Positions 23,073 through 46,498 of a stretch of DNA of 64,000 nt are shown here, piece by piece. Each line of letters opens with the position of its first letter. The first letter of the stretch is position 1. The DNA comes from Sipunculus nudus (lineage: Eukaryota > Annelida > Sipuncula > Golfingiida > Sipunculidae), in the NCBI GenBank assembly GCA_026874595.1, contig CM049314.1, forward strand, positions 2,629,318 through 2,693,317. Direction: 5' to 3'. A program made the position numbers and the translations under genes. A model generated the notes under the pieces. That model did not search any database and was not told the origin of the DNA. It saw nothing but the letters and a program-made list of their open reading frames with translations.

Positions 23073-23119
23073 ATGACCCGAGAGATACGGACTACCTTTC
23101 TGCGGGCGCTAAACCTGAC
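23073..23119 (+). CDS. Coding exon 1 (proposed start)
   Basis: ATG at 23073 opens a 15-codon helix-like segment (MTREIRTTFLRALNL) ending at a good donor (AC|GTGAGC) in phase 2. Exon 2 needs exactly two bases from upstream, and the joined codon ACA continues directly into the first repeat helix. This frame has no other ATG after its upstream stop at 22941-22943. A longer open frame starting at 23027 overlaps it but ends at this donor in the wrong phase. The exon is short and chosen by phase and context, so an alternative upstream first exon is possible. Confidence 0.6.

Positions 23120-46498: not shown

Follow-up and report, generated by a model that had tools for sequence, protein, structure and literature searches.

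A gene of eight exons on the plus strand of a Sipunculus nudus DNA stretch of 64,000 nucleotides (the window, positions 2629318 to 2693317 of contig C9) encodes a protein that, by sequence comparison, contains four homologous units, far above chance, ahead of a predicted C-terminal membrane segment. The protein family lacks a match in the libraries searched, yet it occupies at least nine loci in one animal and has relatives in single-unit cyanobacterial genes.

Gene structure and 5' end

After joining exons 1 to 8 (window 23073-46498), the reading frame was kept, all introns were GT-AG with phases 2, 2, 1, 1, 1, 1, and 2, and each of the eight exons was open, giving 422 codons before the stop codon with internal stops absent. 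The eight exons of the first-pass annotation were thus confirmed, and its length of 420 codons was corrected to 422 residues. The features are listed in Table 1.

Table 1. Features of the gene and its predicted protein, numbered from the first letter of the window
Feature	Position	Strand	Support
Proposed exon 1 (MTREIRTTFLRALNL + 2 nt)	23073..23119	+	Donor GTGAGC, phase 2
Exon 2, unit 1 helix and SCETV strand	23854..24033	+	GT-AG, frame open
Exon 3, unit 1 RLW strand and unit 2 first strand/helix	33333..33466	+	Gene model, C9b layout
Exon 4, unit 2 SCETI and RIFY strands	35613..35771	+	Gene model, C9b layout
Exon 5, unit 3 first strand/helix/NIKTA strand	40185..40331	+	Gene model, C9b layout
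Exon 6, unit 3 RVFY strand and unit 4 first strand/helix	42253..42489	+	Gene model, C9b layout
Exon 7, unit 4 SAESF strand and loop	45258..45387	+	Gene model, C9b layout
Exon 8, unit 4 RIY strand, linker, basic cluster, membrane segment, tail, stop	46264..46498	+	
Unit 1, residues 14-80, two introns inside	23112..33345	+	22.6 bits, paralogue-unit profile
Unit 2, residues about 87-162, one intron inside	33364..35737	+	20.2-20.6 bits
Unit 3, residues 175-254, one intron inside	40187..42347	+	16.4-17.5 bits
Unit 4, residues 264-347, two introns inside	42375..46270	+	4.2-5.7 bits alone
Basic cluster, residues 380-394 (RRRYLEKRKKRKRKK)	46367..46411	+	
Predicted membrane segment, residues 395-413	46412..46468	+	Kyte-Doolittle 19-residue mean 3.11, runner-up 0.74
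Tail, nine residues, DQTLGLIEI	46469..46495	+	

The exon boundaries were supported by paralogues, most strongly by C9b on the same contig and also by C2a and C2b on contig C2. The 3' end of exon 1 aligned with the end of C9b exon 1 in the same phase, exon 2 had the same position and phase in C9b and a matching site in C2a and C2b, and exon 8 matched the final C9b exon in alignment (RIYTEGDYVE beside RVYLKGDYRE). The start codon at 23073 is doubtful, and the true 5' end probably reaches further, because C9b carries about 80 residues ahead of the corresponding point, among them a PPxY motif and the strand that opens unit 1. That first strand was not found in the window gene model, and no ATG was present in the in-frame extension upstream of 23073. 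This extension of exon 1, read with IALGVLVP as the first strand, had a fitting spacing and was rejected in a shuffle test; it left the profile match unimproved (69.8 versus 70.4 bits), with 106 of 500 shuffled extensions scoring equal or better.

Tandem arrays were observed at two of the acceptors. A 38-bp minisatellite of 24 copies (44348-45265) runs into the exon 7 acceptor at 45258, its last copy (TTGCTTGTAG|GGGCAGAGG) being the 3' splice site itself; with this acceptor copy counted, the array has 15 GTAGGG sites. The arrangement at exon 7 is similar to that of amphioxus "mirages", in which intron-exon boundaries are repeated in tandem (PMC3087553). A 43-bp array of 67 copies (30436-33306) stops 26 bases short of exon 3; its unit contains a pyrimidine run and CAG (CCCCTCCATCAG, 57 exact occurrences), so that many copies resemble decoy 3' splice sites. 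Downstream of the gene, a 218-bp perfect tandem duplication of two copies with a 100% match lies at 56750-57181.

Four repeat units

A profile of 12 units from the paralogues P0001 to P0003, built with P0005, C9b, and the window sequence excluded, gave a score of 70.4 bits for the window protein, as against 6.4 for the highest of 1000 shuffles, and located units at residues 14-80, 95-147, 193-254, and 283-319, in line with the four diverged repeats claimed by the first-pass annotation. With five cyanobacterial sequences added, the score was 67.5 bits versus 7.8 for shuffles. Unit 4 was the weakest (iE 0.001-0.0035 alone), and its position was also set by the alignment of full-length paralogues. 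In local alignment of the units with each other, units 1 and 2 reached a z of 5.1, a value not equalled in 1000 shuffles, and the remaining five pairs stayed at 0.6-1.6. Global alignment gave a z of 2.3-2.9 for five of the pairs and -0.1 for units 1 and 4. Judged from these comparisons, the window protein by itself makes a modest case for the repeat, and it is the comparison with the paralogues that settles it.

The motifs reported earlier were all recovered in their places, SCETV at residue 36, SCETI at 125, SAESF at 307, and NIKTA in unit 3, together with the R-aromatic series RLW at 76, RIF at 159, RVF at 249, and RIY at 345. A further RIF at 269, the fifth match to the R-aromatic pattern, falls within the first strand of unit 4, and the R-aromatic motif alone is therefore not specific. 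The earlier layout of helix, strand, loop, and R-aromatic strand was correct in that order and incomplete, since relatives carry a leading strand ahead of the helix (for example, FEDFVP or YKDFAP). From the alignments and crude propensities, we infer in detail a unit order of strand-helix-strand-loop-strand. The consensus consists of a DF-x-P strand, an N-x-W helix, a [VIL]-x-x-x-[ET]-T strand, a variable loop, and an R-[VIL]-[WFY]-Y strand, with exceptions to each element in some units, and the propensities averaged over the unit by this crude method gave strand, helix, strand, (strand), strand. Of the 16 units encoded by the intronless genes P0001, P0002, P0003, and P0005, the unit alignments omitted P0005 unit 4 and P0002 unit 3, the latter of which lacks the helix part.

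Some intron sites recurred among the units as well. In units 1 and 4, a phase 2 intron interrupts the arginine codon of the R-aromatic strand, and in units 2 and 4, a phase 1 intron lies at a G between the helix and the second strand. Duplication of exons together with the units they encode would be expected to leave such a pattern.

Paralogues and their C-terminal ends

Searches of the S. nudus genome, covering 1.43 Gb in 153 contigs, gave weak matches to the window protein (E 0.03-2.5) on contigs C4, C13, C7, C2, and C9, which once read turned out to be clear family members; a later search added one more gene on C13. The paralogues are C9b, C2a, C2b, one gene on C4, three on C13, and a C7 locus known from exon fragments alone. 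Full-length paralogues have four units each, as in the window protein. Four are intronless, P0001 (424 aa), P0002 (388), P0003 (403), and P0005 (C13c, 408), and these intronless, unanchored genes are located on C4 and C13.

C9b, at about 39.36 Mb on contig C9, encodes 519 residues in eight exons with GT-AG sites and an open frame. All seven introns lie at the same aligned residues and in the same phases as in the window gene (BLASTP E 2e-36), an agreement of partial independence, as the C9b exon ends were picked by eye under the guidance of the window gene. C2a and C2b share six introns with the window gene at matching residues, with phase as a search condition. Inside the C2b span, tandem peptide-repeat open frames (SLNETLIPHSVSRSGMKSRAPSLENI) were noted on the opposite strand (L043:225-1169 and L043:3462-3758).

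The membrane anchor and nine-residue tail assigned to the C terminus in the first-pass annotation were borne out by hydropathy, which gave one segment, at residues 395-413. By this prediction, the window protein is like tail-anchored proteins in having a single C-terminal hydrophobic segment and a short tail. C9b also ends in a predicted membrane segment (hydropathy mean 2.52). C2a and C2b both lack the last intron and have CaaX-like ends, CTVL and CCRIL, respectively. Just ahead of the C2b end, an alignment by eye shows residues similar to those of the window linker (RVYMNGYCQEPPPQALPPMP beside RIYTEGDYVEPDPRDLPPLP), and the CaaX-like ends were therefore taken as coding. A CaaX box with a final L is a signal for geranylgeranylation, by which C2a and C2b may be attached to the membrane. 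No hydrophobic anchor segment was detected by hydropathy in the intronless paralogues.

A single-unit relative in cyanobacteria

The profile of P0001 to P0003 retrieved a 95-residue Nostoc protein that is 28% identical across residues 11-106 (E 1e-8, counted relative to candidate stretches alone). Direct tblastn searches of plasmids with P0001 and P0003 yielded no relatives at E 1, so the cyanobacterial link needs the profile. No relatives were found for P0001 in phages, for P0004 in phage and viral sequences, or for A2 in viral sequences. Bacterial members were found as single-unit "hypothetical" genes, in cyanobacteria only; other bacteria were sampled via genome_contigs patterns and plasmids. 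In WP_011316806.1, a "hypothetical protein" of a Trichormus variabilis plasmid, the unit is homologous, with DF-x-P, YESF, NxW, VINVETV, and VRVWY in sequence; unlike the animal family, proteins of this type have a single unit, no fourfold repeat, and no PPxY.

The gene was present at eight places in 6 of 386 cyanobacterial genomes and was full-length and open in four of these; the defective copies comprised one with an internal stop, one with two stops, and one partial. Six plasmid records carried the protein at 78-97% identity, the final part of the copy L024 reading unlike the others. L024, L032 (internal stop), L033 (partial), and L034 (two stops) were excluded from alignments.

With a profile of five cyanobacterial sequences (P0004, L021, L022, L023, and L031), each of the six animal proteins tested outscored its own 500 shuffles, with P0001 at 46.4 bits (best shuffle 11.5), P0003 at 34.7 (5.3), C9b at 29.7 (6.3), P0005 at 21.6 (5.9), and P0002 at 18.2 (6.5). 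The window protein was lowest at 12.9 bits (6.6 as the best of 500 shuffles and 7.8 of 1000), and on this comparison alone its homology to the cyanobacterial unit would be weak.

A gene for an Rce1-like/CPBP membrane protease lies upstream of the cyanobacterial gene, on the same strand, at 6/6 examined loci; this count covers L020 to L025, with the plasmid hit H2 and L026 to L034 outside it. Some of the loci L020 to L025 also have TetR, RidA, or SDR genes, and in L022 to L025 the single-unit gene is followed by one for a protein of 123-125 residues.

Library searches and fold

The earlier statement that no described domain has this layout was upheld in the libraries searched. The window protein had nothing above the cut-off in Pfam and NCBIfam and no match in PDB, genome_contigs, or viral_contigs, and the cyanobacterial protein, the sole query for PHROGs and PADLOC, had no match above the cut-off or of significance in these two or in Pfam, NCBIfam, and PDB. 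We took the weak hits in Pfam, NCBIfam, and PDB (E about 0.02-1.3) to be chance. The family came to light solely by way of the weak matches within the S. nudus genome and the profile of P0001 to P0003. A literature search on the unit family found nothing, which is weak evidence, as the proper search words are unknown. The unit profile now lets the family be searched for elsewhere.

Blades of propellers normally have four strands and no helix, so, of the four-bladed or pseudo-symmetric assemblies suggested in the first-pass annotation, a classical four-bladed propeller is unlikely. The dodecin and DUF4177 families have the order strand-helix-strand-strand, which the propensities of the units reproduce, and the units might be a remote branch of such a known alpha/beta fold missed by sequence. 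We consider this less likely than not. Pfam gave neither dodecin nor DUF4177 when queried with the window protein and its units, with three paralogues, with the cyanobacterial protein, or with 19 aligned members. This reading concerns the fold and would be compatible with either of the functions considered below.

PPxY motifs and integrity of the window gene

All three resolved first exons, those of C9b, C2a, and C2b, encode a PPxY motif (PPPSYDEV, PPPTYQEA, and SPPPAYGQV, respectively); by chance, a shuffled family protein has PPxY in 46 to 140 of 2000 cases. The motif was absent from the window protein in the 422-residue model, in which the first exon is not secured. Plus-strand open frames of at least 20 residues in the 43 kb upstream of exon 2 gave two readings, both judged chance: PPPPY at L051, in a poly-C run some 36 kb ahead of that exon, and PPIY near window position 6282, in an AT repeat. 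The C7 paralogue likewise gave no PPxY upstream of its exon 2. None of the four intronless paralogues has an N-terminal PPxY, and P0002 and P0005 are without any. Inner motifs occur in P0001 (PPAY at 288), P0003 (PPPY at 312), and C2b, which has a second PPxY (PPAY) after unit 2; the motif therefore also occurs away from the N terminus and might be incidental.

The search that failed to find an N-terminal exon for the window gene raises the question of whether this copy is decaying, its first exon with PPxY and the first strand lost and its units drifting. Its last rank among the six family proteins scored with the cyanobacterial profile and the large minisatellites adjoining two splice acceptors point the same way. 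We regard decay as quite improbable. Eight open exons, GT-AG sites throughout, and no internal stop, together with a layout and anchor still shared with a paralogue of just about 25% identity, favour long-standing selection.

Proposed function

Four tandem strand-helix-strand-loop-strand units would form a cytosolic array with the C-terminal segment in the membrane, where they may bind a partner. C9b, C2a, and C2b combine the N-terminal PPxY with predicted C-terminal membrane attachment, either transmembrane or CaaX-type, and in these proteins the motif might recruit a NEDD4-type ubiquitin ligase via its WW domains in an NDFIP-like manner. By analogy, our leading suggestion, a tentative one, is a membrane-tethered adaptor whose units bind the partner and whose PPxY recruits the ligase. 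For the window gene, which has no PPxY, ligase recruitment would rest on a first exon yet to be found. The alternative anchors and first-exon PPxY lead from an anonymous gene to a hypothesis that can be tested.

A membrane-held ligand sensor or scaffold with no role in ubiquitination is about as likely as the NEDD4-type adaptor. In such a scaffold, the units would bind a small molecule or protein and the anchor merely localise the array, and the single-unit bacterial protein may act likewise beside membrane proteases. The protease gene next to every cyanobacterial locus examined and the window protein without PPxY fit this possibility, which leaves the PPxY in 3/3 resolved first exons unexplained and has a ligand that is putative only.

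A bolder reading takes in the origin as well: a single-unit family shared with animals at some time would have been quadrupled inside a single gene and fused to PPxY and swappable anchors, transmembrane or prenyl, to give new membrane-tethered ubiquitin-ligase adaptors. Taken as a whole, this course of events is unlikely.

NDFIPs have three transmembrane segments and no units of this kind, and they have PPxY motifs, unlike the window gene, where none was found. NDFIP-type PY adaptors relieve the inhibition of NEDD4-like ligases (PMC12720080). The paralogues likewise pair PPxY with predicted membrane attachment, and the mode of action proposed for them would be alike.
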